Assembly (NCBI RefSeq): GCF_018343775.1
Contig: NZ_CP074349.1
Span: forward strand, 3,028,001 to 3,092,000
Reading direction: 5' to 3'
Length of the DNA stretch: 64,000 nucleotides
Source of the DNA: Pseudomonas cichorii
Lineage (GTDB): Bacteria > Pseudomonadota > Gammaproteobacteria > Pseudomonadales > Pseudomonadaceae
Below, piece by piece: positions 1-30,012 of this stretch (positions are counted from its first letter, which is position 1; each line of letters starts with the position of its first letter). The notes under the pieces were generated by a model. It did not search any database. It was not told where the DNA came from and was given only the letters and a program-made list of their open reading frames with translations. Both the position numbers and the translations under genes were made by a program.

Positions 1-273
1 GCAAAAGCTCTCGAAATCGACCGGGGTCGGCAGGTCGAAACCACGGAACAGAATGCCGCCATGCTCGCGCAGCCAGCTCTCGACCTTGTCACGGTTGGCT
101 TCAGCCCAGATGGCCGGGGCCAGTTCACGGTCGCGCAGGGTCACCAGCAAGGGGAATTTCGAGCCTTCGCGCAACGGTCGGGCTTCGATGGGCTCACGGG
201 CTGCGGGAGAAGCGCTCTGGCGCATCTTGCCCAATTTGCTCATCTTGCGTTGCACCGGGTTGTCCGTGGACAT
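1..273 (-). other. TauD/SyrP-like dioxygenase N-terminus, in frame with the NRPS; possibly its own start
   Basis: From the ATG at 271-273 the reading frame gives the N-terminus of an Fe(II)/2-oxoglutarate dioxygenase, including GGILFRGFDLPTPVDFESF. This matches GGVLFRGFAFEGEADFEAF in the stand-alone dioxygenase at 22611-23600. No stop separates it from the condensation domain upstream: the NRPS frame runs through IPTVKGAAA into MSTDN. The metal-binding residues lie beyond the window. It is either a true C-terminal fusion or a separate hydroxylase gene whose upstream stop codon has been lost. Beta-hydroxylation of carrier-bound Asp is inferred from the family and from the two Asp modules. Confidence 0.75.
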
Positions 274-3200
274 TGCAGCAGCTCCCTTTACTGTCGGAAT
301 CAAGGTATCGATAGGGTTTTCAGGCGCGTTGAGGGCCATGTCCAGCAGCGACTCGAAAGCGTCTCGCAGGCGTTCGACCGTGGCCGGGCGGAACAGGCTG
401 GTGCGATACACCCAGCGCAGGCTGATCGCATCCCCGTCTTCGCTGGCAAACAGCGCCATGTCGAACTTGGAGTGATGCTGCTCGCCGGTCAGCGGCTCGA
501 CCTGCAGGTTGCCCAACTGACGTTGCTGACGCGGCGTGTTGTCCAGGACAAACAGCGTTTGCAGCAACGGATGCAAGTTGGCCACACGCGGCAGTTCCAG
601 GCATTCAACGACACGCTCGAACGGCGTGTCCTGCCAGGCGAATGCTTGCAGACAAAGCTCCCGGACCTGCTGCGCCTGCTCACGGAAACTCAGTTCCGGT
701 TGCAGACGGATACGCAAGGCCAGCAGGTTGACGAAGAAACCGATCAGCGACTCGGTAGCCGGATGGTCGCGGTTTGCGACATCGGTCCCGATCACCAGAT
801 CTCGACCTTGGGTTTCGCGCTGCAACACGGCGGCATAACAGGTCAGCAACAGCATGAACGGTGAAGTACCACTTTCCTGGGCAAAGGCTTTCAGGCGCTC
901 GACCGTGGAGGCCGACAACTGGAAGTCCAGCGCTGCACCGGTACCGGTGTCGCGTTCCGGGCGCGGGAAGTCGAACGGCAATGGCACTTGCGACGGGATA
1001 CCCGCCAGGGTGCGCCGCCAGAAGTCCAGGCCTTCACGCTGACGCAACTGAACTGCAGGCGAGCCTTGCCACACGGCATAGTCGACGTACTGAATCGGCA
1101 GTTCGCCCTGCGCGGGTTGCAGGCCTGCACTGTAGGCTTCGTAGCCCTGAATCAGCTCATCCACCAGTACCGCGCCGGACCAGCCATCGGAGGCAATGTG
1201 GTGCATGACCAGTTGCAGCACATGCTCCTGCTCGCCAGTGCGATACAGCACCGCCCGCAAAGGCGCCTCGCTGCCCAGATCGAAAGGTCGCAACGCAACC
1301 TTGCGGGCCTCGGCCGACCATTGGGCTTCACTGGAGTCGATCACTTGCAGCTTTACCGACAGATCCCCATGAATCCGCTGACGCAATTCGCCGCCCTGCT
1401 GGTGATAGGTGGTGCGCAAGATGGCATGTCGGCTTACCAGTCGCTGCAATGAGCGTTGCAGGGATTGCTCGTCCAGCTCTCCGCGCAAGCGCACGTTGCT
1501 GCCCATATTGAAACTGCTGTCGGCCAGATCCAGTTGCTGCATCAGCCAGACCCGCTGCTGCGCCGAAGACAACGGCTGTGCGATTTGCTGATCGACGTGA
1601 GGAATCGCCAGCGAGCCGATATCCAGATCACGCGCCAGGCCTTCGAGCCGCGCAGCCAGCTCGGCCAGTACCGGGGTCTCGAACAGCCAGCGCAGAGGTA
1701 CTTCAAAACCCTGCTCGCGCAAGCGCCCACGCACCTGGGCAGCCATCAACGAATGCCCGCCCAACTGGAAGAAATGACCGTCGGCAGGAATCTGCTGGCG
1801 TTTCAACACTGCGCCCCAGATTTCAGCCAGCAAGGTTTCGCTGGCCGATAGCGGACGCTGGACGGTGCTGCTGGCAGAGGTATCCAGTTGCAAACGTGGC
1901 AATTGCTTGCGATCCACTTTGCCGTTGGTGTTAAGAGGCAACTGTTCCAGTGCCTGCATATGCGTCGGCAGCATGTAAACCGGCAAGCGCGCCTGCAAAT
2001 AGTCACGGATCTCGGTTTCGTCAGGTGAACTGCCAGCCTCTGCCACCCAGAACGCAGCCAGATGCTCGCCCTGCACGGCCACGACCGCCTGAACCAGTTT
2101 CGGGTGACTGAGCAGAACCGCCTCGATCTCGCCCAGTTCGATGCGGAAACCGCGCAGTTTGATCTGGTCGTCGGTGCGGCCCAGGTAATACAACTGCCCG
2201 TCGGGTTGCCAACGCGCCAGATCCCCTGTGCGGTACAGGCGGCTGCCATCGGTGCTGAACGGGTCGGCAATGAAGCGTTCTGCGGTCAGGCCAGGTTGCC
2301 CGGCATAACCACGGGCCAAGCCATCACCGGCGATGTACAGCTCACCGACGCAACCGGTCGGCACTTCGCACAAGTGCTCGTCGAGCACGTGGCAACGGGT
2401 GTTGAGCAATGGCCGGCCAATAGGCGCGACAGGTAATTGCAGCGCATTGATCGGGGTCTGGGTAGACCATACGGTGGTTTCTGTCGGGCCATAGACGTTG
2501 ACGAGATGAGCTACGGATTGACGCAGCTCGGTGGCCATGTCTGCCGACAGTGCTTCACCGCCGGCCAGCGCCACACGCCCGGCCAGCACCTGACGGTCGC
2601 CCTGCAACAGCATGGCCCAGGTGGCTGGTGTGGCCTGAATCAGGTCCACGGACTGGTTCTTGATCAGACTGGCGAGCAACACAGGGTCCTGACGCTCGTC
2701 ATCGTCGGCCAGCACCACGGAACCGCCGCGCACCAGCGGCAGGCACAGTTCCAGGCCACAGATATCGAAGGTGACGGTAGTCAGGGCCAGGTAACGCTGC
2801 ACGGTGTCCAGTGGCAGCGCTTGCTCCATGGCCAGCAGGAAGTTGGCAAAGTTGCCGCGACTGATCTGCACCCCCTTGGGCTGCCCGGTGGAACCCGAGG
2901 TGTAGAGCGTGTAAGCCAGTTGTTGAAGGTTTCTGTCAGCCGCCGGAACCTGTGCCGGGAACTGTGCCAACGGCAGGTCGGCCCAGAGGTAGCAGCGCAG
3001 TGGCTCCGGCAAGTCGGCAGCCCGCGCATCGCAGAGCAGCAATTGTGGCTGCGCACGGGTGAGAATCTGCGCCTGACGGGCCGCTGGATGGCCAGGATCG
3101 AGCGGCAGGTAGGAAGCCCCGGCTTTCTGGATCCCCAGCATGCATACCAGCAGTCTTTCATCCCGTGGCATGCAGAAGGCAACTGTCGACTCGTGACCAA

Positions 3201-6200
3201 CGCCCTGCTCCAGCAGCCAATGGGCCAGCCGGTTGGCCTGGGCATCCAGCGCTGCGTAGCTCAAGCGCCGATCTGCGCTGAATACCGCGACGCGCTCGGG
3301 ATGCAGGGCCGCCTGTACTTCAAAGCGCGTCACAAAATCCGCTTCGCAGTGCACCTCCATGGACGTGCCCGAGGTGGCCAGTTTTGCAACCGAGCCCAGC
3401 GGCACTTCCAACAGGCTCTGCTGAAGATCAAGGCGGGTCAGGCTGCCGAGCAGGCCCTGATAATCCTCGACCAGACGCTGAGTGGTTTCAGGACTCAGCA
3501 GTGCGGTGGCGTACTCGACAATCAGGCGGGTATTGGCAGCGGCGCCACGCCCGTGGGTGAACAGGTTGAACGTCAGGTCGAACTTGGCACTGACCACACC
3601 GTCCGGCAGCGCCAGTGATTCCACGCTGACACCCGGCAGGCTGAAGCGGCGGGAATCGCCATGGTCGATCTGGTAGTTGAACAGGTTCTGGAACACCGGC
3701 GTGCGATCCAGATGGCGTTCAAAATCCAGCGTGTCCAACAGTTGCTCGAACGGCAACTCCTGATGGGCCATGTCATCGGCCAGTTGCCCGTTCAGGGTCG
3801 TGATGAATGCTTGCAGGCTTTGTCGGGCATCGATCTGTACACGGTGAGCCAGGGTGTTGACGAACAGGCCGACCAACGCCTGCCCGGCCGCCGACTCACG
3901 CCCGGCCACCGGCAAGCCGATGGCGAAATCCGTGCGCCCGGCATGTCGCCACAGCAGGATCTGGTAAGCGGCAAAGTACAGCACGAAAGGCGTAACACCC
4001 AATGCTCGGGCCTGTGCATCGACTGCCGCGCTCAGAACACCCGGCAAGACAAATTCGTCACGGGCACCTTCGTAGGCCTGCACCGCTGGCCGCAGACAGT
4101 GATCGGGCAGCTCAAGAGGTTCATTGCCCAGACCTTGCAGGCGCTGCTGCCAATAACCCAGCAATTGCTGGCCTTGCTCGCCGTCCAGACGTTGCCGCTG
4201 CTCTTGGATGAACGGCAGCAAACCGGTTGCTGCAGGCGTTGGCTGGTCCTGATAGATCAGCGCAAAGTCCTGAACCAGCAAGCCCATGGACCAACCGTCC
4301 ACGGCAATGTGATGCACATTGAACAGCAGGCGGTAATCGCCGGGCGCAATGCTGAAGACATCGATGGCCAGCAACGGCCCGTTGACCAGATCAAAGACAC
4401 GTCGGGCGGCCTTGGCGATGGTTGCCTGTTGCTCGGACTCGCTCAGGCCGCTGAGGTCATGCACATTGAAGATCGGCGTGCCTGTCTCGTCCAGACGCTG
4501 CCAGACCTGCCCTTGCTCTTCAAAGAAACGGCAGCGCAACGCTTCATGCCGCTGGACCAGCGCCTGACAAGTGCTTTGCAGGCGCGGAACATCCAGATCA
4601 CCGCGCAAGGCCAGCAACTGAGTGACGTTATAAGCGGTTTGCGCCGGATCCAGTTGCTGCATGAACCACACCCGCTGCTGGGCATGGGACAGGGGCTGCG
4701 GTTGATCTGCTGCCTGAATGGCTACTGGCGGCGTAACGGCCTTTGCTGCAACAGGTTTCAATACCCCGGCCAGTTGCCGAGGCGTCGGATTTTCCAGCAA
4801 CTGCCGAGGCATCAGGCGCAGTTCGGCCTTACGCAAGCGGGCAATCAATTGCAGACTGAGGATCGAGTCGCCGCCTGCGGCAAAGAAATCGGCATCCGGT
4901 CCAAGCCCTGGTTGCTCAAGCAATTCGCGAAAGGCGTCAAGAACCGTGGACAAGGCCGGCTGCTGGCGGCAATCGATGCACAGGGCCATGCCCGCCAGCG
5001 TGGAATGCTGCAAGACGTCCCGTGGTTTCAGCATGAGCCCTGCGCGAGATGCCAGGCCGATCAGTTGCAGACTGAGGATCGAATCACCGCCGAGGGCAAA
5101 GAAATCATCCTCGCGCCCGACCTGCGCACACCCCAGCACCTGACACCACAACTGCGCCAGTTGCTGCTCCGTGGCACCTGTCGGTGGCTGAGCGACTGCG
5201 CTTGCTGTTTCAGTTTCAGCCGGTTCCGGCAAGGCGCGGCGATCCAGTTTGCCATTGGCGGTCAGCGGCAGTGTGTCCAGCGTCAGCCAATGGGCAGGCA
5301 GCATATGCTCCGGCAATTGATGCCGGGCCTCGGCTTGCACGTCAGCCAGTTCCTCAGTGCTCAGCGCGGGGCTGATATACGCCACCAGTTGTGTCCGGCC
5401 TTTGATTTCCTGTGCCAGCACCGCACCTTCGCGAACCTGTGGCCGGGCATTGAGCCAGGCACTGACTTCGCCCGGTTCGACCCGGAAACCGCGGATCTTG
5501 ACCTGATCGTCCTGACGCCCCAGGAACACCAGACGCCCGTTGCGATCCAGGCGAACCCGGTCACCGCTGCGGTAAAAGCGCTGGTGCTGGCTATGGCTCT
5601 GGGCCGTAGAACCGAATGCCTTTGCAGTCAGTTCAGGTTGGCCGAGATAACCCTGTGCAACCTGTGGGCCTGCAATCAACAGCTCACCGGCCACGCCCAG
5701 CGGAACCGGAATGTCATTGCCATCGACAATGCGCAGTTCACAGCCTGCCAATGGCTGACCCAAAGGCAGGTACTGCCCCGATTCCAGTGAATCGATGGAC
5801 GAAATTTCGCCACAGATCACACCGATCGTGGTTTCCGAAGGACCGTAGTGGTTGAAGATGCGCAGTTGCGGTGCCAGTTCGCGTACTTGCGTGAACAACG
5901 CCTGATCGAAGCCTTCGCCCCCCAGAATCAACACCTCTCTTGGCAACACCCGTCGGGCATCGTCCAGTGCCAGCAAACCGCGCAAATGCGAAGGCGCGAT
6001 TTTCAGGCAGTCCACCGGCTGCTGGTCGAGGAAGTCAGCCCAGCCCGGTGGGTCGAAGGTCAGGGATGCGGGCGGCAGCACCAGCGGATCACCGGCATTC
6101 AGGGCTGCGAATACGCACGTCAGGCCCAGATCCGCAGCCACGGTGGCCAGGGTCGCCCAACGGCTGCCCGGTTTTGCCTGCAAACGTTGGCCGACAGCCG

Positions 6201-8226
6201 TCGCGTAATGCGCCAGATTGGCGTGAGTGACCAGCACGCCCTTGGGCTGACCGGTCGAACCCGAGGTGTAGATGAGGTAAGCAGGCAGTTGCGGCTGGCT
6301 AAGGCTTTGGCCCGAATCCACAGGCGCGTCAGCCGACCAGTCGCCAGTACTCAGCTCAAGGCGCGCAATGTCGACACCGGTTTCAGGCGCTTCGGCCAGG
6401 GTCAGCCACAGGCTTGCGCCACTGTCCTGCAACAGTTGCGCAAGTCGCTGCGGCGGCTGGGCCGGATCGAGAAACAGGCAGACCGCACCGCGCTGCCAGC
6501 AGGCCAGGGTCGCCAGCAACTGCTCGGCGCAACGAGGCATGCACAGCGCAACCACATGACCCGGCTCAATGCCCTGCCCGGCCAGTTTTGCAGCCAGCGA
6601 CCGGCTGGCGGCACCCAGGGTTGCGTAATCAATGGTCTGCTCAAGGCTGCACAAGGCCGGCGCGGTCGGTGTATGGGTTGCCCAGTGCTGGACTTGCCGG
6701 TCCAGCGGCAAGGGCGTCGAGCCCAATGCCGGACCGCTCAGTTCGCTCGCAGGCGAAACCAGTTGCAGTTCGGCCAGACGCCGCTGGGGATGGCTCGCAG
6801 CCTGCCCAAGAATCGCCAGCAGGTCGTCCAGCATTTGCTCGACCGTGGCGGCATCGAACAATTCGTCGCTGTATTCCAGCTCGCAACGCAGGCGCGAGTC
6901 GGCGGTGCGCACCAGGCGCAGCGTCAGGTCGAAACGGGCATGGCGCTGCGGCGGGTCAAGCACTTCGACCGCAACACCGGGCAGTTCCAGGGTGCGGCTT
7001 GCGGGCAAGTCGACCTGCACGAACATGACCTGGAACAGCGGGCTTGAACGTGGGCGCTCAAGGCTTTCCAGCACATTCTCGAACGGTAGCAATTGATGAT
7101 CGAAGGCGGCTGCGACGGTGTCACGGGTGCGCAGCAGTGCGCTTGTGAAGTCCGGGTTGCCCTGCAACTGCTGGCGGATCACCAACGTGTTGAGCAACGG
7201 GCCGATCAAGGGCACCAGTTCCGGCCGGTCACGCTGGGCGGCGGAAGTGCCAAGGCACACATCGTTTTCACCGCTATAGCGGGACAGCAGACAACTGAAA
7301 GCGGTCAGGCCGTAGATGTACAGCGTCACGCCTTGCTTGCGAATGGCGGCTTCGACGGCTGTCGTCAGTTCGTGCGAAAGTTCACGGGCAAGCACCGCGC
7401 CGCTATGACGGCGCTGGCTGGCCGCAGGGCGTGGGCGGTCCAGAGGCAAGGCCAGCGGTGCCGGGGCATCCGCCAGTTGGGTGCGCCAGAACTCGATGTG
7501 CTGCTGGCAACTATCACTGTCCAGCCACTCCTGTTCCCAGGCCGCGTAATCGGCGTACTGAATGCTCAGCTCCGGTTGCCGGGCAGGTTCATTCAGTGCA
7601 AGCGCCCGATAAGCCTCGGCCAGTTCCAGAGTGAGCTGCTGAGCCGACCAGGCATCGTAGGCCACGTGATGGATGGTGAAAAACAGCCAGGTCGACTGGC
7701 CCTGCGCATCGCTGAAGGCCTGCCAGCGCCAGGGTGCAGACAGGGCAAGATCGAAGGGCTCGGCGAGCTGGCGTGCGTATTCGTCGGCACACCATTGCTC
7801 GTAGTCGGCCGCCGCCAGTGTCAAGCGCTCGACCTTTGGCAGAGACACCTGCAAAGGTTCGCAATGGGGCTGCAACTGACCTTGCGCATCAGTTGTGTAG
7901 CGTGTGCGCAGGATCTGATGACGGTCGGTCAACTGCTGCATGGCCTGTTGCAGACGCTGACCATCGAGGTCGCGGTCGAAACGCAGCACCGAGCAAAGGT
8001 TGTAGAGCGCACGACTGCTCAGGGCTTCAGCCGACAGAAAGCGCCGTTGCGCCTGGGCCAGCGGCAGGCTTTGACCTTCGCCGGGTACGGCAGGCACTAT
8101 TGGCAGCCGCCAGCTATCGATGCCCTTCTCGGCCAGACGCTGGCGGAACAGCTTTTTCTTGTCCGCAGACAAGGACGCCAGTCGCTGTGCAATCTCCAGG
8201 AACGCTTGTTGCGTCATCCCACTCAT
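1..8226 (-). CDS. Siderophore NRPS, C-A(Asp)-T-T-C-A(Gly)-T-C plus fused dioxygenase; 3' part outside window
   Basis: Multimodular peptide synthetase, 2742 codons visible, open at the left edge. Order by residue: C (HHVAYDAWS near 187), A (TSGSTGQPKG near 657), two carrier domains, both GGDSI (near 1046 and 1118), C (HHIAVDGWS near 1307), A (near 1777), T (GGHSLMAAQ near 2155), C (HHIASDGWS near 2340), then a TauD-like dioxygenase start from about 2652. Specificity residues read by hand are DLTKIGHIGK, almost the classical Asp code DLTKVGHIGK, and DILQLGVVWK, a Gly-type code. It starts 2 nt after the stop of the preceding NRPS, so it is in the same operon. No thioesterase is visible. The tandem carrier after Asp mirrors the 17736-22544 gene. 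The domain calls are secure; Asp and Gly are strong predictions; the product is inferred. Confidence 0.93.
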   Translation of the reverse strand, partial: MSGMTQQAFLEIAQRLASLSADKKKLFRQRLAEKGIDSWRLPIVPAVPGEGQSLPLAQAQRRFLSAEALSSRALYNLCSVLRFDRDLDGQRLQQAMQQLTDRHQILRTRYTTDAQGQLQPHCEPLQVSLPKVERLTLAAADYEQWCADEYARQLAEPFDLALSAPWRWQAFSDAQGQSTWLFFTIHHVAYDAWSAQQLTLELAEAYRALALNEPARQPELSIQYADYAAWEQEWLDSDSCQQHIEFWRTQLADAPAPLALPLDRPRPAASQRRHSGAVLARELSHELTTAVEAAIRKQGVTLYIYGLTAFSCLLSRYSGENDVCLGTSAAQRDRPELVPLIGPLLNTLVIRQQLQGNPDFTSALLRTRDTVAAAFDHQLLPFENVLESLERPRSSPLFQVMFVQVDLPASRTLELPGVAVEVLDPPQRHARFDLTLRLVRTADSRLRCELEYSDELFDAATVEQMLDDLLAILGQAASHPQRRLAELQLVSPASELSGPALGSTPLPLDRQVQHWATHTPTAPALCSLEQTIDYATLGAASRSLAAKLAGQGIEPGHVVALCMPRCAEQLLATLACWQRGAVCLFLDPAQPPQRLAQLLQDSGASLWLTLAEAPETGVDIARLELSTGDWSADAPVDSGQSLSQPQLPAYLIYTSGSTGQPKGVLVTHANLAHYATAVGQRLQAKPGSRWATLATVAADLGLTCVFAALNAGDPLVLPPASLTFDPPGWADFLDQQPVDCLKIAPSHLRGLLALDDARRVLPREVLILGGEGFDQALFTQVRELAPQLRIFNHYGPSETTIGVICGEISSIDSLESGQYLPLGQPLAGCELRIVDGNDIPVPLGVAGELLIAGPQVAQGYLGQPELTAKAFGSTAQSHSQHQRFYRSGDRVRLDRNGRLVFLGRQDDQVKIRGFRVEPGEVSAWLNARPQVREGAVLAQEIKGRTQLVAYISPALSTEELADVQAEARHQLPEHMLPAHWLTLDTLPLTANGKLDRRALPEPAETETASAVAQPPTGATEQQLAQLWCQVLGCAQVGREDDFFALGGDSILSLQLIGLASRAGLMLKPRDVLQHSTLAGMALCIDCRQQPALSTVLDAFRELLEQPGLGPDADFFAAGGDSILSLQLIARLRKAELRLMPRQLLENPTPRQLAGVLKPVAAKAVTPPVAIQAADQPQPLSHAQQRVWFMQQLDPAQTAYNVTQLLALRGDLDVPRLQSTCQALVQRHEALRCRFFEEQGQVWQRLDETGTPIFNVHDLSGLSESEQQATIAKAARRVFDLVNGPLLAIDVFSIAPGDYRLLFNVHHIAVDGWSMGLLVQDFALIYQDQPTPAATGLLPFIQEQRQRLDGEQGQQLLGYWQQRLQGLGNEPLELPDHCLRPAVQAYEGARDEFVLPGVLSAAVDAQARALGVTPFVLYFAAYQILLWRHAGRTDFAIGLPVAGRESAAGQALVGLFVNTLAHRVQIDARQSLQAFITTLNGQLADDMAHQELPFEQLLDTLDFERHLDRTPVFQNLFNYQIDHGDSRRFSLPGVSVESLALPDGVVSAKFDLTFNLFTHGRGAAANTRLIVEYATALLSPETTQRLVEDYQGLLGSLTRLDLQQSLLEVPLGSVAKLATSGTSMEVHCEADFVTRFEVQAALHPERVAVFSADRRLSYAALDAQANRLAHWLLEQGVGHESTVAFCMPRDERLLVCMLGIQKAGASYLPLDPGHPAARQAQILTRAQPQLLLCDARAADLPEPLRCYLWADLPLAQFPAQVPAADRNLQQLAYTLYTSGSTGQPKGVQISRGNFANFLLAMEQALPLDTVQRYLALTTVTFDICGLELCLPLVRGGSVVLADDDERQDPVLLASLIKNQSVDLIQATPATWAMLLQGDRQVLAGRVALAGGEALSADMATELRQSVAHLVNVYGPTETTVWSTQTPINALQLPVAPIGRPLLNTRCHVLDEHLCEVPTGCVGELYIAGDGLARGYAGQPGLTAERFIADPFSTDGSRLYRTGDLARWQPDGQLYYLGRTDDQIKLRGFRIELGEIEAVLLSHPKLVQAVVAVQGEHLAAFWVAEAGSSPDETEIRDYLQARLPVYMLPTHMQALEQLPLNTNGKVDRKQLPRLQLDTSASSTVQRPLSASETLLAEIWGAVLKRQQIPADGHFFQLGGHSLMAAQVRGRLREQGFEVPLRWLFETPVLAELAARLEGLARDLDIGSLAIPHVDQQIAQPLSSAQQRVWLMQQLDLADSSFNMGSNVRLRGELDEQSLQRSLQRLVSRHAILRTTYHQQGGELRQRIHGDLSVKLQVIDSSEAQWSAEARKVALRPFDLGSEAPLRAVLYRTGEQEHVLQLVMHHIASDGWSGAVLVDELIQGYEAYSAGLQPAQGELPIQYVDYAVWQGSPAVQLRQREGLDFWRRTLAGIPSQVPLPFDFPRPERDTGTGAALDFQLSASTVERLKAFAQESGTSPFMLLLTCYAAVLQRETQGRDLVIGTDVANRDHPATESLIGFFVNLLALRIRLQPELSFREQAQQVRELCLQAFAWQDTPFERVVECLELPRVANLHPLLQTLFVLDNTPRQQRQLGNLQVEPLTGEQHHSKFDMALFASEDGDAISLRWVYRTSLFRPATVERLRDAFESLLDMALNAPENPIDTLIPTVKGAAAMSTDNPVQRKMSKLGKMRQSASPAAREPIEARPLREGSKFPLLVTLRDRELAPAIWAEANRDKVESWLREHGGILFRGFDLPTPVDFESFC
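282..289 (-). promoter_or_regulatory. Strong internal Shine-Dalgarno sequence before the dioxygenase ATG
   Basis: The minus strand reads AAAGGGAG, 8 nt before the ATG at 271-273, inside the open NRPS frame. Such a site is expected at a gene start, not within a fused protein. It suggests the dioxygenase can be, or once was, translated separately. A TAA sits just beside it (GTAAAGG) but one base out of the NRPS frame. Confidence 0.6.
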
Positions 8227-8228
8227 TC

Positions 8229-17693: not shown

Positions 17694-17735
17694 GCTGACG
17701 GTATCCGAACCTTTAATATGGGGGACGCAGGGTTG

Positions 17736-22544: not shown

Positions 22545-22610
22545 TTGTTGTCCTTTTTCTACTTGTTCGAAGTAAGCCGTCTATTGCGACAGCTTTCCAG
22601 ATGAGAGTGC

Positions 22611-23600
22611 TCAGCTTGCCGAAGCAGGCTCCGCCATGGCGACCACGACCTTGCGTGCGCCCTGGAATGTCGAGCGGCCGTGGGCCACCAGCATGTTGTC
22701 GAGCATCAGTACGTCGCCTGCCTGCCAGGGGAAACTGACCTGGCAGCGCTGGAGAACAGCGCGTACATGCTCAAGAGCTTCCAGCTCGATGGGTGAACCG
22801 TCGCCGTAAAAAACGTTACGCGGCACGCCTTCCTCGCCAACGATGGAAATCAGCGTCTCGCGTACCGCCGGTGCAAGATTGGATATGTGAAACAGGTGCG
22901 CCTGATTGAACCAGACCCACTCGCCGCTCACCGGATGCCGGGCAACGGCCTGACAAACCTGACGAGTTGAAAGCTCACCCTCTTCATCCCACTCGAATTC
23001 GATATTGCTGGCCTTGCAGAACTGCTCGACCTGCGCCCGGTCTTCGGTGCTGAAAGCCTGTTGCCATGGCAGATCCAGGCCATTACCGTAATTGCGCACA
23101 TACATCAGGCGCTTGTCGGCAAAACGCTGGCGAATGACCGGATCAAGCTGTCGATAGACCTCACGACTGTCTGCAATCGGGGTTTCTCCGCCGACCTGGG
23201 ACGCCTGCACGCAATGAAACCAGATCTTCATAGGCCAGTTCAGGGAATAGGACTGTTCATTGTGCAGCGGAATGACCTGATGGGCCGGGTATTCGGTGGA
23301 GGTGTAGACGCGGTTGTTGAGTTTGGTGCGTGGCGTGGAAGCGTAGTCGTAGGTCAGCAGCTCATGGCCGAAGCTACAGGCAAACGCTTCAAAGTCGGCT
23401 TCGCCTTCGAAGGCAAAGCCTCGGAACAGAACACCACCGGCACGGGGCAATTCAGCCTCGACCACCCGCTGGATCTGCTCGCGATGGGCTTGCCAGGTAT
23501 CGCCGGCAGCCGGCGCCTGAAAGATGAACGGCAGGGTCAGTTCACTCCCTTGGGAAACCTCCATGGATTGAACCTGTGTACGCGCCACACCCGTTTCCAT
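22611..23600 (-). CDS. TauD/SyrP-like Fe(II)/2-oxoglutarate dioxygenase, probable Asp beta-hydroxylase
   Basis: 329 residues, full length for the TauD/TfdA family. The metal ligands are visible as H113-x-E115 in PLHNEQSY and H307 in VAHGR, with R316 likely binding 2-oxoglutarate. Because the acidic ligand is Glu, it should hydroxylate rather than halogenate. SyrP-type relatives hydroxylate Asp tethered to an NRPS carrier protein. It is the first gene of the NRPS operon, next to an Asp module with tandem carriers, so hydroxylation of that Asp is the natural reading. The start ATG has GAGGGG 5 nt upstream, and a Fur-like box lies about 76 nt upstream. A second copy of this domain is fused to the last NRPS in the window (1-273). 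Confidence 0.9.
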   Translation of the reverse strand: METGVARTQVQSMEVSQGSELTLPFIFQAPAAGDTWQAHREQIQRVVEAELPRAGGVLFRGFAFEGEADFEAFACSFGHELLTYDYASTPRTKLNNRVYTSTEYPAHQVIPLHNEQSYSLNWPMKIWFHCVQASQVGGETPIADSREVYRQLDPVIRQRFADKRLMYVRNYGNGLDLPWQQAFSTEDRAQVEQFCKASNIEFEWDEEGELSTRQVCQAVARHPVSGEWVWFNQAHLFHISNLAPAVRETLISIVGEEGVPRNVFYGDGSPIELEALEHVRAVLQRCQVSFPWQAGDVLMLDNMLVAHGRSTFQGARKVVVAMAEPASAS

Positions 23601-23675
23601 TTGAACCCCTCGCCATCCCGATAAGCGTATTTTTTGGAGAGCACAAACTAATACAAACGAGTACCAACATCAATA

Positions 23676-23694
23676 GAGAATGATTGTCATTTAT
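23676..23694 (-). promoter_or_regulatory. Fur-like box upstream of the siderophore NRPS operon
   Basis: The plus strand reads GAGAATGATTGTCATTTAT, which matches the 19-bp Fur consensus at 13 positions by hand count, including both AATGAT and TCATT cores. It lies in the 120-bp gap between the dioxygenase start and the binding-protein stop. That is where the NRPS operon promoter should be, so iron repression is likely. The overlapping GTCATTTATGAC is a perfect palindrome. I did not find a convincing -35/-10 pair. Confidence 0.65.
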
Positions 23695-23720
23695 GACATT
23701 TGTATCAAAATTGACACAAC

Positions 23721-24659
23721 TTATGGCGCTTGCAGCACGCTCTCCCGCTCACCGATATGCGACATCAGCAAATAGGCTGAACCTAACAGGCCTTGCATCG
23801 TATCGGCATAGCGGCTGCGGTTCAGATAAAGGAACTGACGATTCTTGACCGCAAACAGATTCTGCCATTGCGGCGACTGCCGGAAGGCCGCCGTGCTGGC
23901 CTCCGAATCTAGCAGCTCTTCATATGTATCAATAATGAAATCACTGTTGAAGTCGCCAATTCGCTCCAGGCTGTAGGGCACGTTCTGCCGTGCAGCGCTG
24001 TAAGCCGGGACACGTCCCAAGCCAAAATCGGCGATGACATCATCCATGCCGCCACGGCCGATCAACTGAAAGCCATCGGTGTAGACCTCAAGCGTCGTGA
24101 CGGTCATTCGCGAAGGGTCCTTGACCCGTTTCTTGAACTCCTTGACGACCCATTGGTACTCACCGAGCATTTCGGCGTAACGCTGCTGCTTGCCGACCAG
24201 GTCGGCCAGCTCCTTGGCGTAGGTCTTGATATCGCTTTCACGTGCAGGCAACAGCACCACCGGCGCAATCTTGCTGAGCTTCTCCTTGATATCCGCGTGA
24301 TATGACAATCCGATGATCAGGTCGGGCTTCAAGGCAGCAATCGCTTCCAGATCGGGCGCCTGATGCGAGCCGATGTATTGGATGCCCGTCACATCGAAAC
24401 GCTCCTGGGTGCCGCGAAACAGCACATCGGAAAACAGCTTCTTGCGGCCTGTGGAGCCGCAGGGCTTGACGCCCAGCTCCAGCAATTGCGTGGTCAGGCT
24501 GAAGTCATGCAGCGACACGATGCAATGCGGCACCACTGGTACTTCGACCCGGCCAAAGCTGTTCTCGAACACCCTGGTTTCTGCAGCGTTCACATTTACG
24601 GCCAGCAATGCCAGAGGCACACACAACATGCACGCCACACCCCGGAAAATTCCTTTCAC
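23721..24659 (-). CDS. Periplasmic ferri-siderophore-binding protein (FecB/FhuD type)
   Basis: About 312 residues with a typical Sec signal (hydrophobic ACMLCVPLALLAVNVNA, then AAE). The mature part follows the class III substrate-binding pattern: FGRVEVPVVPHCIVSL near the start, the DLEAIAALKPDLIIG segment, and YLNRSRYADTMQGL near the end. It would carry the ferri-siderophore from the outer-membrane receptor to the permeases encoded just upstream. I chose the GTG at 24659 because a G-rich ribosome site lies about 7 nt before it; the GTG at 24665 is almost touching that site. The gene is last of the four-gene ABC operon, 27 nt after the permease. The closest named relative cannot be decided by eye. 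Confidence 0.88.
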   Translation of the reverse strand: MKGIFRGVACMLCVPLALLAVNVNAAETRVFENSFGRVEVPVVPHCIVSLHDFSLTTQLLELGVKPCGSTGRKKLFSDVLFRGTQERFDVTGIQYIGSHQAPDLEAIAALKPDLIIGLSYHADIKEKLSKIAPVVLLPARESDIKTYAKELADLVGKQQRYAEMLGEYQWVVKEFKKRVKDPSRMTVTTLEVYTDGFQLIGRGGMDDVIADFGLGRVPAYSAARQNVPYSLERIGDFNSDFIIDTYEELLDSEASTAAFRQSPQWQNLFAVKNRQFLYLNRSRYADTMQGLLGSAYLLMSHIGERESVLQAP

Positions 24660-24686
24660 CCGCACTTCCCCCCAGACAATTTGTTT

Positions 24687-25736
24687 TTAGCGATTACGCT
24701 GACGCGCCAACAAGACCATCAGATAAGGCGCACCGATAATGGCGACCACCAGCCCGGCCGGTAGCTGCAAGGGTGGAAAGATGCCCCTTCCCAGTGTGTC
24801 GCCAGCCAGAACCAGCAGCGCGCCAAACAGCGCCGACAAGGGCATCAAGGCGCCATGGCGATCACCCGCCAGTTGCCGCGCCAGATGCGGAGCCACCAGA
24901 CCGACAAAAGTCATGGTACCGACATTCGCCACAGCCGCCGCCGTCAGCATGACGCTGCACAGCAGCAAGGCAATCATGACACCCGTGACATTCAAGCCTC
25001 GGCTGAGCGCAACCTTTTCCCCCAGTTGCAGCAGGTTCAACTGCCGATGGCAGAACAACAACGGCACACCCGCCAGCAACAACCAGAGCCCAAGGCTGTT
25101 GACCTGCGCCCAGCCGGCCCGATGCAGACTGCCACCCAGCCACATCAGGGCCGACTCCACCTGATCGATATTGCCGTAGGTGATCAGCAGATCGGCGACG
25201 GCACTGAGCATGGCAGTAAGCCCCACGCCCACCAGAATCAGACGCAACGGCGAGATGCCCTGGCGCCAGGACAGCAGCGCAACAAAGAACGCCACGGCCA
25301 GACCGCCCGCCAGTGCCGCCAATGGATACAGCTCCAGCGGCAGAAGCCCGGGCCAGAGCACAATGATCAGCAACATGGTGACGCTGGCACCCGACTCCAC
25401 ACCCACCAGACCGGGCGCTGCCAGCGGATTGCGGGTCAACGACTGCATCAGCAGGCCAGCCAGGGACATGGCCGCCCCCGCCAGGATGGCCAGCAGCACA
25501 CGGGGCAATCGCAGCTCCCAGAGCAGATTGCGGACTGTCGGACTGACCTGCTCGGGCGCCAGGACTGCCTGCCAGGCCTGAGCAACACTCAGGGAAAAAC
25601 TGCCCACGGTCAGCGCATACAGGGCCAACCCGATCACAGCCCCTGTCAGCACCACCACCGAAATCAGGTCGATGGGTCGGGCAATCCAGGGAAGCAACGG
25701 CAAGGCTCTGGGCAAGGTCAGTCCGGCGCGCTTCAT
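24687..25736 (-). CDS. FecCD-family iron-siderophore ABC permease, second subunit
   Basis: 349 residues from the ATG at 25736, which overlaps the stop of the preceding permease by 4 nt (ATGA). The product is a polytopic inner-membrane protein with about ten hydrophobic segments and the usual FecCD motifs: LRLPRVLLAILAGAAMSLAG, then QSLTRNPLAAPGLVGVESGA, and TFVGLVAPHLAR in the loop that contacts the ATPase. A longer frame reaches 26105, but its extra N-terminus is low-complexity Arg/Gly-rich sequence and overlaps the other permease entirely, so it is rejected. It pairs with the product of 25733-26716 to form the membrane channel. Confidence 0.92.
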   Translation of the reverse strand: MKRAGLTLPRALPLLPWIARPIDLISVVVLTGAVIGLALYALTVGSFSLSVAQAWQAVLAPEQVSPTVRNLLWELRLPRVLLAILAGAAMSLAGLLMQSLTRNPLAAPGLVGVESGASVTMLLIIVLWPGLLPLELYPLAALAGGLAVAFFVALLSWRQGISPLRLILVGVGLTAMLSAVADLLITYGNIDQVESALMWLGGSLHRAGWAQVNSLGLWLLLAGVPLLFCHRQLNLLQLGEKVALSRGLNVTGVMIALLLCSVMLTAAAVANVGTMTFVGLVAPHLARQLAGDRHGALMPLSALFGALLVLAGDTLGRGIFPPLQLPAGLVVAIIGAPYLMVLLARQRNR

Positions 25737-26716
25737 TTGACCTTCCTCAGCACCAGGATGACAAAAACAGGGCCACCGATCAGGGCCGTGACGATGCCGG
25801 TGTTGAGCTCGAACGGACTGACCACGGTGCGAGCCGCGATGTCCGCCAGAATCAGCAGCAGCGCGCCCAGCAAAGGGGCTGCCAGCAACAACCGACGATA
25901 ATTGTCGCCAAACAGCAGGCGCGCCGCATGAGGCACCACCAGCCCGACAAAACCGATGGGGCCTGCCAGCGCCACGGCACACCCGGACAAGAGGACCACC
26001 GAAGCCAGCCCGAACACGCGCATCCGCAACAAGCTGACGCCCATGCCAGCAGCCGCTTGCGGACCCAGGCGGTGAGCATTCAAGGCCCGCACATTGAGCA
26101 GGCACAGAAACATGCCCAGCAAGACATAAGGCCAGACCCAGGCCTGCATGGTGCCGCCAGTCACGCCGATGGAGCCGGTCAGCCAGCGTCGCAGGCTGTC
26201 GAGCCCTTGTTGATCGAGCAATAACAGTATTGAAGTGATCGCACTGAACAGCGCCGCAATCATGGCGCCCGACAACGTCAGGCGAATCGGGTTATGGCCC
26301 CTGCCCGCCAGCAACAGGACGCCGATGGCAGCCGTCAGCGCACCGGCAAAGGCAAATAACGGAATCATCGACAAATCGTTGCCCGGCATCACCAGCAGCC
26401 CGAACACCACGAACAGTGCTGCGCCGCTGTTGATACCGAGAATCCCCGGATCGGCCAGCGGGTTATCGCCGACCGCCTGCATGATGGTACCGGCAAGCCC
26501 GAGGCTGGCACCGACCAGCAGCGCGACCAGCAGGCGCGGCAGGCGACTGCCACGAATGACACTGTGATCGGGATTGCCCGGCACATAAGCAACCAGTGCC
26601 TGCCAGGTTTCATGCCAGGGAATGCTCTTTGCGCCAACTGCCAGATGAATCAGTGCGGCCAGGGCGATTGCCATCAACAGACCCAGCCATACCGGCAACC
26701 GTAGACCGTGACTCAC
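25733..26716 (-). CDS. FecCD-family iron-siderophore ABC permease, first subunit
   Basis: About 327 residues from a GTG at 26716 that overlaps the ATPase stop by 4 nt (GTGA), with GGAGG 4 nt upstream. An ATG at 26767 would add 17 residues and overlap the ATPase by 55 nt; the shorter form places about eight residues before the first membrane span. FecCD hallmarks are SRLPRLLVALLVGASLGLAG, QAVGDNPLADPGILGINSGA and GFVGLVVPHAARL. The hydrophobic pattern is continuous and the gene is intact. Both permeases are encoded separately, as in fecCD and fhu-like importers, and translation is probably coupled through the two 4-nt overlaps. Confidence 0.92.
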   Translation of the reverse strand: MSHGLRLPVWLGLLMAIALAALIHLAVGAKSIPWHETWQALVAYVPGNPDHSVIRGSRLPRLLVALLVGASLGLAGTIMQAVGDNPLADPGILGINSGAALFVVFGLLVMPGNDLSMIPLFAFAGALTAAIGVLLLAGRGHNPIRLTLSGAMIAALFSAITSILLLLDQQGLDSLRRWLTGSIGVTGGTMQAWVWPYVLLGMFLCLLNVRALNAHRLGPQAAAGMGVSLLRMRVFGLASVVLLSGCAVALAGPIGFVGLVVPHAARLLFGDNYRRLLLAAPLLGALLLILADIAARTVVSPFELNTGIVTALIGGPVFVILVLRKVK

Positions 26717-27516
26717 ATCGCCTCCTGCACGGGCAGCGGCTTGCTTCGGTTCGACTGCGGGACGCATAACGGGTCGCCGGAATAAGGGTCGGTGATGATG
26801 TGTGCATCCAGATCGAAGACTGCCTTGAGGTTTTCCCGGGTGAACACCTCGGCAGGCGCGCCCTGGGCCAGCAAACGACCGCCACGCATCATCACCAGAT
26901 GATCGGCGTAACGTGCGGCCTGATTCAGGTCATGCAGGACTGCCACGATGGTCTTGCCCTGCTCGCGCAGATCCACCAGCAGTTCGAGCAGCGTGATCTG
27001 ATGGGCGATATCAAGAAAGGTGGTCGGCTCGTCCAGCAGAATCACCGGCGTATCCTGGGCGAGGGTCATGGCAATCCAGCAGCGCTGCAACTGCCCGCCC
27101 GACAGGGTTGCCAGCGAACGATCGAGCAGAGAGTTGATACCGGTCAGCTCGATGGCGCGGTCGATGGCCTGCTGATCCTGCCCGGACCATTGACGCCACC
27201 AGCTCTGCCAGGGAAAACGCCCCTGCATCACCAGTTCACGCACGCTCATGCCCGCTGGCGATGTGGTGCGCTGGGGCAGCAATGCCAGCTGTTGCGCCAG
27301 CGCCCGACGCGAATACTGGCGCAGCGGCTTGCCGGACAATTGCACCTCGCCAGCGCCAGGACGCAGCATGTGCGCAAGCACATTGAGCATGGTGGTCTTG
27401 CCGCAGCCGTTGGCACCGATCAACGCCGTGAAACGGCCTTCGGGGATGTCCAGGCTGACACCATCAAGCACAAGTTGTTCGCCATAGCCCAGCCGCACTC
27501 CGGTGGCTTTCAGCAT
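26713..27516 (-). CDS. FecE/FepC-type ABC transporter ATPase for ferri-siderophore uptake
   Basis: About 267 residues. Walker A is GANGCGKTT, the Q-loop region is LALLPQRT, the signature is LSGGQLQR, Walker B is VILLDEPTTFLD, and the H-loop is VLHDLNQAARYAD, all typical of the iron-chelate importer family. I prefer the ATG at 27516 (MLKATGVRLGYG) because GGGAG lies 7 nt upstream and family members start just before this strand. An in-frame ATG at 27585 would add 23 residues. It is the first gene of the ABC operon and is divergent from the TonB-dependent receptor across roughly 280 bp. Confidence 0.9.
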   Translation of the reverse strand: MLKATGVRLGYGEQLVLDGVSLDIPEGRFTALIGANGCGKTTMLNVLAHMLRPGAGEVQLSGKPLRQYSRRALAQQLALLPQRTTSPAGMSVRELVMQGRFPWQSWWRQWSGQDQQAIDRAIELTGINSLLDRSLATLSGGQLQRCWIAMTLAQDTPVILLDEPTTFLDIAHQITLLELLVDLREQGKTIVAVLHDLNQAARYADHLVMMRGGRLLAQGAPAEVFTRENLKAVFDLDAHIITDPYSGDPLCVPQSNRSKPLPVQEAM

Positions 27517-27668
27517 GACCTTTCTCCCACCCAATAGAGCCTGATCGAATCGTCCGTCGAGCAATGCCCCGGCATCGTTTTTCATCCTGTCGTCACATCA
27601 GGGGCATAAGTGGGCCACAGAATGTGTCGAAAATGAAATAATTCTGTACCTCAGCAACAAATCTTAAT

Positions 27669-27687
27669 GCAAAACCTTATCATTTAC
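27669..27687 (-). promoter_or_regulatory. Weak Fur-like site in the divergent importer/receptor promoter region
   Basis: The minus strand reads GTAAATGATAAGGTTTTGC, 12 of 19 matches to the Fur consensus, with one good half (AAATGATAA) and one poor half. It lies between the divergent ATPase and receptor genes, where iron control would be expected. The rest of 27517-27795 shows no other clear motif. Treat this as tentative. Confidence 0.35.
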
Positions 27688-27795
27688 AGATAAAGTATGG
27701 CCAGTCGATACCAGCCCGGTTGAGCCACTGATGGCGCAGGATTCAGGGCAAATGGCTATTCCGAAAGTCAAAATGTACATCCAAGGACTTCCTCG

Positions 27796-30012
27796 ATGCT
27801 CGAAAGAAAAATAACAGTTAGCACCGAAAACCGTTACACAAGGCGCCCTCCTGTGTTTCACCTGACCACCCTGGCACTGGCTTTGAGCGGCGTCATCTCG
27901 ACGCAGGCAATCGCGGCGGATGAAGCATCCGACAAGAATGCCGTTCAACTCACCAATATCAACATCAACGCCGACACCCCGGAAAACCCGACTGCCCCGC
28001 TGGCCGGCAAGGTTGCCCTGCGCAATACCAGTGCCACCAAGACCAACGCGGCCATCACCGAAACACCGCAGTCGCTGTCCGTGGTGACTGCCGATGAAAT
28101 CAACGACCGCAAGTCCGACACCCTGGCCGACGCCCTGAGCTATACGCCGGGCTTCACCAGCCAGCCATCGAGCTTCAACCGCACGTCCGACCGTTTCCGT
28201 ATCCGCGGTTTCGACGTAGAGTCTGCCACCGGCGGCTCACTGCGTGACGGCCTGCGCCTGCAGAACAACTCCTACGACGGCGTCCAGGAACCCTACGGCC
28301 TTGAGCGTGTGGAAGTGATCCGTGGCGCGGCCTCGGTCCTGTACGGCCAGTTGTCACCAGGCGGATTCGTCAACGGTGTCAGCAAGCGCCCGACCGATAC
28401 CCCGCTTCATGAGTTGGGCCTGCAATACGGCAACAATGATCGCAAGCAATTGACGGCCGACTTCAGCGGCCCACTGGGCGACAGCGATACCCTCAGCTAC
28501 CGCCTGACCCTGTTGCAACGCGACAGTGGCACCCAGCAGGACCATATCAATGACGACAAGCTCTACATTGCTCCGGCCCTGACCTGGCGTCCCAATGAAG
28601 ACACGTCGCTGACCTTGCTGGCTTTCCACCAGAAAAGCGACACGCGCTTCTCCGCGCCCCTGCCTTATCAGCTCGTCAAAGGCCTCGGCAACGGTCCCTT
28701 TACCATTGGCCGTCACGACTTCATCGGTGAGCCCGGTTACGACGACATGAATGGCGAAATGTCCGCCATCGGTTATGAGTTCGAGCATCACTTCAACGAC
28801 AACATCCGCATCAGCAACAAGCTGCGTTACTACGAAGCGGAGATGAAGTGGAACTACTTGCAGGTCCCAATCAATAACGCAGCAGCAATAGCGGCTGTCA
28901 ATTCTGCTGCCAGAAATGGCTTGCTGACTCGCCAGTACAGCGACCGTCACGAACGCTCCAGGGCCTTGGCCAGCGATACAAACGTCGAAGCACGCTGGAA
29001 CATCGGCGGTGTGGAAAACACCTTTCTGATGGGTGCCGACACCTATGATGCATCCTATGACTCGCATAACTTCAGGGGCAACGCGCCCTCTTTGAATCTC
29101 GCCACCTACAACTATGGGCAGCCGGTGGTAGTGAACAAGGCGCAGGCCCTTGAACGTGGCTCACAGATCGATACCCTGCAGACCGGCATCTATCTACAAG
29201 ACCAGATCAAGTTCGACGATCACTGGCTGCTGCTACTCGGTGGTCGCCACGACTGGGCCAACCAGGACCAGAAAGCTTTTGCCAACGGCCAGAAACGGCA
29301 CCAGTCAGACGAATCCACCACGTGGCGCGCTGGCCTGGTGTACCAGGCGGATAACGGCCTGGCTCCATACATCAGCTACAGCGAGTCGTTCTTCCCGGTA
29401 GCGGTGGCGGATGCGCCGACCCAGAGCTTCGCCCCGACCGAAGGCAAGCAGTATGAAGTGGGTATTCGCTACCAGCCCCCTGGCAGCAATATCCTGTTGA
29501 GTGCCGCTGTTTATGAGCTGACCCAGAAAAACGTGCTGAAGACTGTCAATAACGTTTCTTCGCAGACGGGCGAACAACGCTCCCGCGGACTGGAACTGGA
29601 AGCCAAGGCCGATGTAACGCCGCAATTCAGCGTCATTGCCACCTATGCCTACACCGACGCGCGCATTACCGAAAGTTCGGTTCCGGGGGAAGTGGGCCAG
29701 CGCAGCGAAGATACGCCGTACCATCAGGCTGCACTGTGGACCGACTACAACTTCGCCCTGTTCGGCATTCCGCAACTGAAGATTGGCGGCGGCGCTCGCT
29801 ACAAGGGCACAACCCAGGCTTCGGGTATCGAGTCGCAGATGCCGGCTTACTTCCTGTTCGACGCCATGGCCAGCTACCAGATCGACAAGAACTGGGATGT
29901 TTCCCTCAACGCAAACAATGTGACGAACAAGAAGTACACCTACTGTGAATTTGCGATCTGCCGCTACGGCGATGAGCGCGAACTGGTGACTTCCGTCAAT
30001 TTCAGGTGGTAA
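27796..30012 (+). CDS. TonB-dependent ferri-siderophore receptor
   Basis: 738 residues. A long N-region and hydrophobic stretch end in TQAIA before ADE, a plausible signal-peptide cleavage. The plug begins with ITETPQSLSVVTADEI and ADALSYTPGF, then VEVIRGAASVLYGQLSPGG, all typical of siderophore receptors. A 22-strand barrel follows and the protein ends in VTSVNFRW with the C-terminal aromatic expected of outer-membrane barrels. There is no N-terminal signalling (STN) extension, so it should not drive its own sigma/anti-sigma pair. AAGGA lies 8 nt before the ATG. Its position beside a FecBCDE importer and the NRPS operon makes it the likely receptor for this locus's own siderophore, which is inference. 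Confidence 0.94.
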   Translation: MLERKITVSTENRYTRRPPVFHLTTLALALSGVISTQAIAADEASDKNAVQLTNININADTPENPTAPLAGKVALRNTSATKTNAAITETPQSLSVVTADEINDRKSDTLADALSYTPGFTSQPSSFNRTSDRFRIRGFDVESATGGSLRDGLRLQNNSYDGVQEPYGLERVEVIRGAASVLYGQLSPGGFVNGVSKRPTDTPLHELGLQYGNNDRKQLTADFSGPLGDSDTLSYRLTLLQRDSGTQQDHINDDKLYIAPALTWRPNEDTSLTLLAFHQKSDTRFSAPLPYQLVKGLGNGPFTIGRHDFIGEPGYDDMNGEMSAIGYEFEHHFNDNIRISNKLRYYEAEMKWNYLQVPINNAAAIAAVNSAARNGLLTRQYSDRHERSRALASDTNVEARWNIGGVENTFLMGADTYDASYDSHNFRGNAPSLNLATYNYGQPVVVNKAQALERGSQIDTLQTGIYLQDQIKFDDHWLLLLGGRHDWANQDQKAFANGQKRHQSDESTTWRAGLVYQADNGLAPYISYSESFFPVAVADAPTQSFAPTEGKQYEVGIRYQPPGSNILLSAAVYELTQKNVLKTVNNVSSQTGEQRSRGLELEAKADVTPQFSVIATYAYTDARITESSVPGEVGQRSEDTPYHQAALWTDYNFALFGIPQLKIGGGARYKGTTQASGIESQMPAYFLFDAMASYQIDKNWDVSLNANNVTNKKYTYCEFAICRYGDERELVTSVNFRW

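Follow-up and report, generated by a model that had tools for sequence, protein, structure and literature searches.

The left part of a 64,000-nucleotide stretch of the Pseudomonas cichorii genome (the window, G000:C1:3028001-3092000, from a genome of 5.98 Mb in a single contig) contains most of a non-ribosomal peptide synthetase (NRPS) locus whose gene content very strongly suggests the biosynthesis, export and uptake of a siderophore. Taken as a whole, it is probably best explained as an iron-starvation locus that makes a seven-residue siderophore with three beta-hydroxyaspartate (OHAsp) ligands. As far as could be checked, the siderophore family is undescribed and probably represents a known kind of molecule, the OHAsp siderophore, in a new arrangement: the open-licence literature yielded no described product for the locus, no siderophore of the same residue order and no report of a siderophore with three OHAsp. 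An initial annotation had proposed a beta-hydroxyaspartate siderophore locus with two hydroxyaspartates. The first part remains the best reading, with Asp modules, hydroxylases, receptor, importer and exporter found together; the number of hydroxyaspartates changes, since there are three Asp modules, and a count of three in the product is moderately favoured by the sequence.

The whole cassette covers about 39 kb of the genome (3019146-3058012), of which window positions 1-30012 hold most and the remaining ~8.9 kb lie leftward of the window edge. The four NRPS genes all point the same way. Read leftward along the minus strand, genes for a FecE/FecC/FecD/FecB-type importer are followed by a stand-alone TauD-fold dioxygenase and by NRPS 1, 2 and 3.

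The assembly line and its residue order

Domains and adenylation (A) domain codes together gave the full line D-Asp(E)-Dab-X-Y-Asp-Gly-Asp-TE, seven residues in all, where Dab is diaminobutyrate, E an epimerisation domain, TE a thioesterase and X and Y two residues with unassigned codes. The genes, with condensation (C) and carrier (T) domains, are:

22611..23600, minus strand, predicted stand-alone Asp beta-hydroxylase, TauD fold, HNE motif (PF02668, 2.1e-49)
17736..22544, minus strand, NRPS 1, 1602 amino acids (aa), first module: C-A(Asp, DLTKVGHVGK)-T-T-E
8229..17693, minus strand, NRPS 2, 3154 aa: C-A(Dab, DIWELTADDK)-T-C-A(DIVQIGGVYK)-T-C-A(DMPQLGAVWK, Gly-like)-T
1..8226, minus strand, NRPS 3, 3013 aa: C-A(Asp, DLTKIGHIGK)-T-T-C-A(Gly, DILQLGVVWK)-T-C-TauD; the open reading frame (ORF) extends 816 nt beyond the left edge of the window (full ORF L010:7185-16226)
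End of NRPS 3, minus strand, predicted fused TauD hydroxylase domain (PF02668, 1.7e-45)
L009:15403-19188, left flank, outside the window, NRPS 4: degenerate C-A(DLTKVGHVGK, Asp)-T-TE

The order seen earlier inside the window, Asp(E)-Dab-two unassigned-Asp-Gly, agreed with these codes. Both Asp modules counted then are present, and the further modules expected outside proved to be one, a third Asp module with the TE on NRPS 4.

Codes were read at what we take to be the specificity positions, and for this locus they were confirmed by visual inspection of the alignment; in other clusters, automatic alignment left a misread letter in a few codes. We take DIWELTADDK to be a Dab code, a reading backed by a Dab aminotransferase in the cluster and by the Dab module of PvdL. 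The three A domains with DLTK..GH.GK codes read as Asp-specific, as expected of an OHAsp siderophore NRPS. DLTKVGHVGK is listed for Asp/Asn-activating domains, and the Gly reading of DILQLGVVWK rests on the near code DILQLGMIWK (PMC12283262). The codes of X and Y, DIVQIGGVYK and DMPQLGAVWK, had no match among codes in the open-licence literature. Their A domains, own counterparts aside, were nearest to Gly-type domains, and X and Y are therefore likely to be small residues.

In trees made by quick methods, the first C domain of NRPS 2 grouped with those C domains of PvdL and Marinomonas that come after an E domain (92% in the SH-like approximate likelihood-ratio test, SH-aLRT), consistent with a D residue at position 1. 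NRPS 1 gave only a sub-threshold match to a TubC docking domain at its start (23 bits against a cut-off of 26), and this candidate was rejected.

Two predicted hydroxylases and a degenerate condensation domain

The two TauD-type dioxygenases of the initial annotation were recovered as the two PF02668 proteins listed above, and the HNE motif is kept in both. In a quick-method tree of 38 rows, for which the program warned of long branches meeting, the fused hydroxylase clustered with fused hydroxylases. The stand-alone enzyme joined others of its kind from Asp lines, among them those of pyoverdine, Cupriavidus and corrugatin type, in a clade separate from enzymes linked to His modules. The locus is thus predicted to have two siderophore-type Asp beta-hydroxylases, in separate stand-alone and fused clades.

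The C-like domain of NRPS 4 lacks HHxxxD in all nine loci aligned (eight Pseudomonas, one Marinomonas). It follows directly after the fused hydroxylase of NRPS 3, giving the pattern TauD-C-A(Asp), as in potashchelin, whose start FAAL-ACP-C-TauD-C-A(Asp) (fatty acyl-AMP ligase, acyl carrier protein) gives L-threo-OHAsp (PMC7100376). It grouped (98% SH-aLRT) with one degenerate domain of locus L067 and with two of genome G205, which precede Asp and His modules, the His-side one on a long branch. L067, from a Pseudomonas sp. metagenome bin (C4), has Asp(T-T)-Gly, after which come C-TauD and a degenerate C domain; this line is akin to corrugatin-type lines but has Gly where those have Dab.

Tandem carriers on Asp modules

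Asp modules 1 and 5 each have two carrier domains, both with the serine motif. In the alignment of nine loci, tandem carriers were present at position 5 in 9/9, even in Marinomonas, and at position 1 in 8/9. We measured the spacing from the A domain to the next C domain in all modules with both detected, in loci (L041-L120 and fetched relatives) drawn in through their stand-alone hydroxylase, four of which are present twice. Spacing of at least 100 residues occurred in 43/74 Asp modules versus 0/69 other modules (longest other 78), and in 39/70 versus 0/65 after removal of the four duplicate loci, the rows still being non-independent. Long spacing is a proxy, as no second carrier was detected in L061, L062 and L063. 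The 31 short-spaced Asp modules were mainly of pyoverdine and Bradyrhizobium type, and we rejected a general requirement for tandem carriers in modules on which a stand-alone hydroxylase acts. We read long spacing, as an association only, as a likely mark, in these lines, of the Asp modules on which the stand-alone enzyme acts.

Transport genes and Fur-like sites

The FecBCDE-type importer and TonB receptor claimed earlier were both found, and the cluster thus has the receptor and importer expected of OHAsp NRPS siderophores. The importer genes together occupy 23721-27585, and the genes with L009 coordinates lie in the left flank, outside the window:

23721..24665, minus strand, FecB-type periplasmic iron-siderophore binding protein (PF01497)
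24687..26105, minus strand, FecC/FecD-type permease ORF (PF01032); the domain covers residues 158-468, which puts the probable true start at ~25660
25733..26767, minus strand, second FecC/FecD-type permease gene (PF01032)
26713..27585, minus strand, FecE-type ATP-binding protein (PF00005; NCBIfam NF008409 339 bits, below the cut-off of 375)
27796..30012, plus strand, divergent TonB-dependent siderophore receptor (PF00593, PF07715, TIGR01783 above cut-off)
L009:13763-15580, ABC exporter of cyclic-peptide (PvdE/SyrD) type (TIGR01194, 409.1 bits; cut-off 286.2)
L009:13034-13762, opposite strand, FhuF-like reductase
L009:12614-12829, MbtH
L009:11146-12576, diaminobutyrate aminotransferase (NF005393, 757.7 bits; cut-off 671)
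23676..23694, Fur-like site, 14/19 consensus letters, 76-94 nt before the stand-alone hydroxylase gene
27663..27681, second Fur-like site, 13/19 letters, between importer and receptor genes

Among solved sequences, the receptor was closest to the enantio-pyochelin receptor and FhuA.

The Fur-like box of the initial annotation was partly borne out. The best site is that at 23676-23694, and its position is partly conserved, but its score of 14/19 was the best in 3 of 20 shuffled windows (13 in 14 of them, 12 in the other 3). Among 18 related loci, the closest 7/7 had a 13-14/19 site at -92 to -97 before the hydroxylase gene, which lends the first site weight. P. gingeri had a 14/19 site at -142 and Marinomonas a 15/19 site at -151, and the remaining 9/18 had 12-13/19 or no clear counterpart. 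Iron regulation of the locus is therefore plausible. Five loci (L048, L050, L051, L053, L057) had no clear Fur-like site and shared a motif, approximately G[CT]AAAA....CTCA.TATC, ~60-105 nt before the hydroxylase gene, possibly another operator.

Distribution of the locus

The stand-alone hydroxylase (at least 77% identity) and a fused NRPS of 3.0 thousand aa were found in at least 10 of 298 genomes of the genus Pseudomonas, own included. In a named genome collection, of which the best 80 of 476 loci were used, 17 loci had hydroxylase identities of 77-97%, all from Pseudomonas: P. capsici, two labelled P. cichorii, P. kilonensis DSM 13647, P. uvaldensis, P. frederiksbergensis SI8, P. fuscovaginae SE-1, P. 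marginalis ICMP 3553, P. composti LY1, P. cuatrocienegasensis, P. gingeri A8002, P. mosselii SC006 and five further species. An Asp module was followed by a Dab module in 17/17. The block aligned across 16.6-19.6 kb in 17/17, which argues that it is real beyond chance, with DNA identity of 90-92% to the P. capsici and P. cichorii MAFF 302096 records. A search with the C-TauD piece at E 1e-200 in 369 class-wide genomes recovered own and one other only (44% identity, 4089-aa frame).

Eight Pseudomonas lines were read whole (own, G018, G039, G112, G001, G113, P. cuatrocienegasensis and P. gingeri), and the residue order was identical in 8/8, with different codes in G039 at residue 3 (DIVQVGGVYK) and residue 4 (DMSQLGAVWK). 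Matches to receptor, importer, exporter and aminotransferase occurred in 6/6 Pseudomonas loci whose stretch covers them, the aminotransferase match being only 64-65% in G113 and G001; in P. gingeri and P. cuatrocienegasensis, too, FecB and FecC genes adjoin the NRPS genes. In P. kilonensis, RGM2987, P. uvaldensis and P. frederiksbergensis, similarity to the window did not extend beyond 30012, where the receptor gene ends, which gives the cassette the appearance of a unit.

Outside the genus, Marinomonas alcarazii CECT 7730 (L164-L166) has the same order, tandem carriers, E domain, fused hydroxylase and degenerate C domain, and the same NRPS (38-50% identical), hydroxylase, exporter, importer and Dab aminotransferase genes. 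It differs in a fatty acyl-AMP ligase before module 1, a receptor only 27% identical, and the codes at residue 3 (DIVQICGVFK) and residue 4 (Gly, DILQLGVIWK).

Comparison with known siderophores

The initial annotation could not match the line to known siderophores, and the order indeed differs from those of pyoverdine, corrugatin-type siderophores, lactuchelin, cupriachelin and potashchelin. Pyoverdine was rejected as the product because a PvdL-type chromophore NRPS locus lies elsewhere in the genome (3710527-3767495). That locus (L146-L149) contains a stand-alone hydroxylase of its own along with two Asp modules, and the strain would thus have pyoverdine besides the new siderophore.

The product could already be known if the locus belonged to the corrugatin family (corrugatin, ornicorrugatin, histicorrugatin), whose production has been reported from P. 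corrugata and P. brassicacearum. The lines that we label corrugatin-type, G153 (P. brassicacearum subsp. neoaurantiaca CDVBN10) and G205, carry that label by inference and were read to fewer than the eight residues reported for the family. They share with this locus a tandem-carrier Asp module followed by a Dab module, a stand-alone and a fused hydroxylase, C-TauD followed by degenerate-C-Asp, and a Dab aminotransferase (79%). Their order is Asp-Dab-Asp-(DGDASGIVVK)-His, with a third hydroxylase beside the His module, plus a Gly module on the other strand, whereas our cluster showed no His code and no third hydroxylase; their best receptor matches are 25-26% and their exporter 45% identical to ours. 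Corrugatin was rejected on the His module, its hydroxylase and the different order, and membership in the family seems scarcely credible.

Cupriachelin contains OHAsp, Dab, OHAsp and Gly, with L-threo and L-erythro OHAsp, but unlike the line studied here it is shorter, with two OHAsp and an N-acyl-N-hydroxyornithine end (PMC10484230), and was rejected on order and end group. The two Cupriavidus loci taken as cupriachelin-like have an Asp(T-T)-Dab-C-TauD NRPS and no E domain after the first Asp. Lactuchelin is, like the predicted product, from a Pseudomonas line of seven residues, a lipopeptide siderophore with OHAsp at both ends, but its strains are described as lacking pyoverdine (PMC12904278). 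Its Ser-rich line and its ornithine N-hydroxylase and acetyltransferase genes led us to reject it: no Ser or Orn code was recognised here (two codes being unassigned), and neither gene was found among the ORFs scanned. Potashchelin obtains L-threo OHAsp through a fused hydroxylase before an Asp module and L-erythro OHAsp through a stand-alone enzyme, but it has nine residues, cyclic N-hydroxyornithine and an acyl-AMP ligase (PMC7100376) and was rejected for its different order.

Predicted pathway and alternatives

In the pathway that we propose, the line would give (acyl?)-D-Asp-Dab-X-Y-Asp-Gly-Asp, released by the terminal thioesterase. The stand-alone hydroxylase would act on carrier-bound Asp at positions 1 and 5 to give L-erythro-OHAsp, and the E domain would convert position 1 to D-threo-OHAsp. 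The hydroxylase fused to NRPS 3 would act on Asp 7 held by NRPS 4 to give L-threo-OHAsp, with the degenerate C domain as its interface domain, a term said to come from Reitz 2019. Three alpha-hydroxycarboxylate groups would then fill all six iron sites. The PvdE/SyrD-type exporter would secrete the product, the TonB receptor and FecBCDE-type importer would take the ferric complex back up, and release of the iron may fall to the FhuF-like protein. The stereochemical assignments follow cases in which stand-alone Asp hydroxylases yield the 3R product and fused ones the 3S product (PMC12628792, PMC7100376).

Module 1 would probably add a fatty acid. Its C domain fell together with those of first modules in Cupriavidus, corrugatin-type and Marinomonas lines, among others (100% SH-aLRT), and in Marinomonas an acyl-AMP ligase with a carrier domain lies directly before module 1, which makes it likely that the product carries an acyl chain.

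Several observations weigh against parts of this pathway. A SyrE-like starter C domain was rejected for module 1, as its C domain did not group with the three starter C domains of the genome's lipopeptide lines; no acyl-AMP ligase belonging to this locus was found, and when the genome was searched with the Marinomonas ligase, the only good match was the PvdL loading domain (382 bits, next 70). Tandem carriers do not appear to be required for the stand-alone enzyme, judging from pyoverdine-type and Bradyrhizobium lines, potashchelin and P. gingeri: module 1 of P. gingeri has a single carrier, the first one being deleted, and the L-erythro module of potashchelin is drawn with one carrier (PMC7100376). 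If they are dispensable, hydroxylation at position 5 could fail. The stereochemical rules are taken from other systems and would apply here by analogy. The Fur-like sites are weak by score, the second within the shuffled range. The fused-hydroxylase clade includes the dioxygenase of the genome's own mycin-like cluster, so that the clade alone is no proof of a siderophore role.

This last point bears on whether the product is an antimicrobial or phytotoxic OHAsp lipopeptide of the syringomycin (mycin) type rather than a siderophore. OHAsp occurs in mycins, and the genome has mycin-like and cichofactin-like lines. Against this, receptor and importer adjoin the NRPS genes in the six covered Pseudomonas loci and in Marinomonas, and a FhuF-like gene lies in the cluster (own genome only); we regard a mycin as very improbable.

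The same siderophore might instead have two of its three Asp hydroxylated (e.g. positions 1 and 7), with a plain carboxylate, Dab, X or solvent completing iron binding. There are just two hydroxylases for three Asp modules, and cupriachelin, potashchelin and lactuchelin combine two OHAsp with N-hydroxy-ornithine or its genes (PMC10484230, PMC7100376, PMC12904278). The position-5 module, however, has tandem carriers like those of position 1, kept even in Marinomonas, and no other known ligand gene was found among the flanking ORFs scanned, which leaves two OHAsp possible but rather unlikely. Three OHAsp as the only recognised ligands are predicted from the two tandem-carrier Asp modules and the degenerate C domain after the fused hydroxylase. 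The most specific form of this proposal, a new family whose only ligands are three OHAsp of different diastereomers (D-threo, L-erythro and L-threo) produced by one assembly line with two hydroxylases and an epimerase domain, stands at about even.

Other NRPS clusters in the genome

A second NRPS cluster occupies window positions 39759-64000 and continues to genome position 3095012, with 3 + 5 modules and two TE motifs. Its Leu-, Gln/Glu- and Val-like codes read Leu-Leu-Gln-Leu-Gln-Val-Leu-Leu, which matches cichofactin, with NRPSs of three and five modules and Gln at position 5 (PMC9769872). The mycin-like line at genome positions 3127275-3164042 (L142-L144) has a free-standing Thr-type A domain, a TauD dioxygenase and two large NRPSs; together with giant NRPSs at 2.88-2.95 Mb it fits the factin, mycin and peptin set reported for phylogroups 8 and 11.

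Implications for iron acquisition in Pseudomonas

If the three-OHAsp proposal is right, it would add a siderophore family, with a predicted all-OHAsp hexadentate ligand set, to plant-associated species, the P. cichorii complex included, and this family would be common to scattered Pseudomonas and marine Marinomonas. Tandem carriers would be the sign of the two Asp modules on which a single stand-alone hydroxylase acts, and the all-hydroxycarboxylate chelate should be strongly photoreactive. One molecule would test the stereochemical rules of both hydroxylase types and the role of tandem carriers in Asp modules. As the genome also has a pyoverdine locus, the finding bears on iron competition and on the spread of secondary siderophores.

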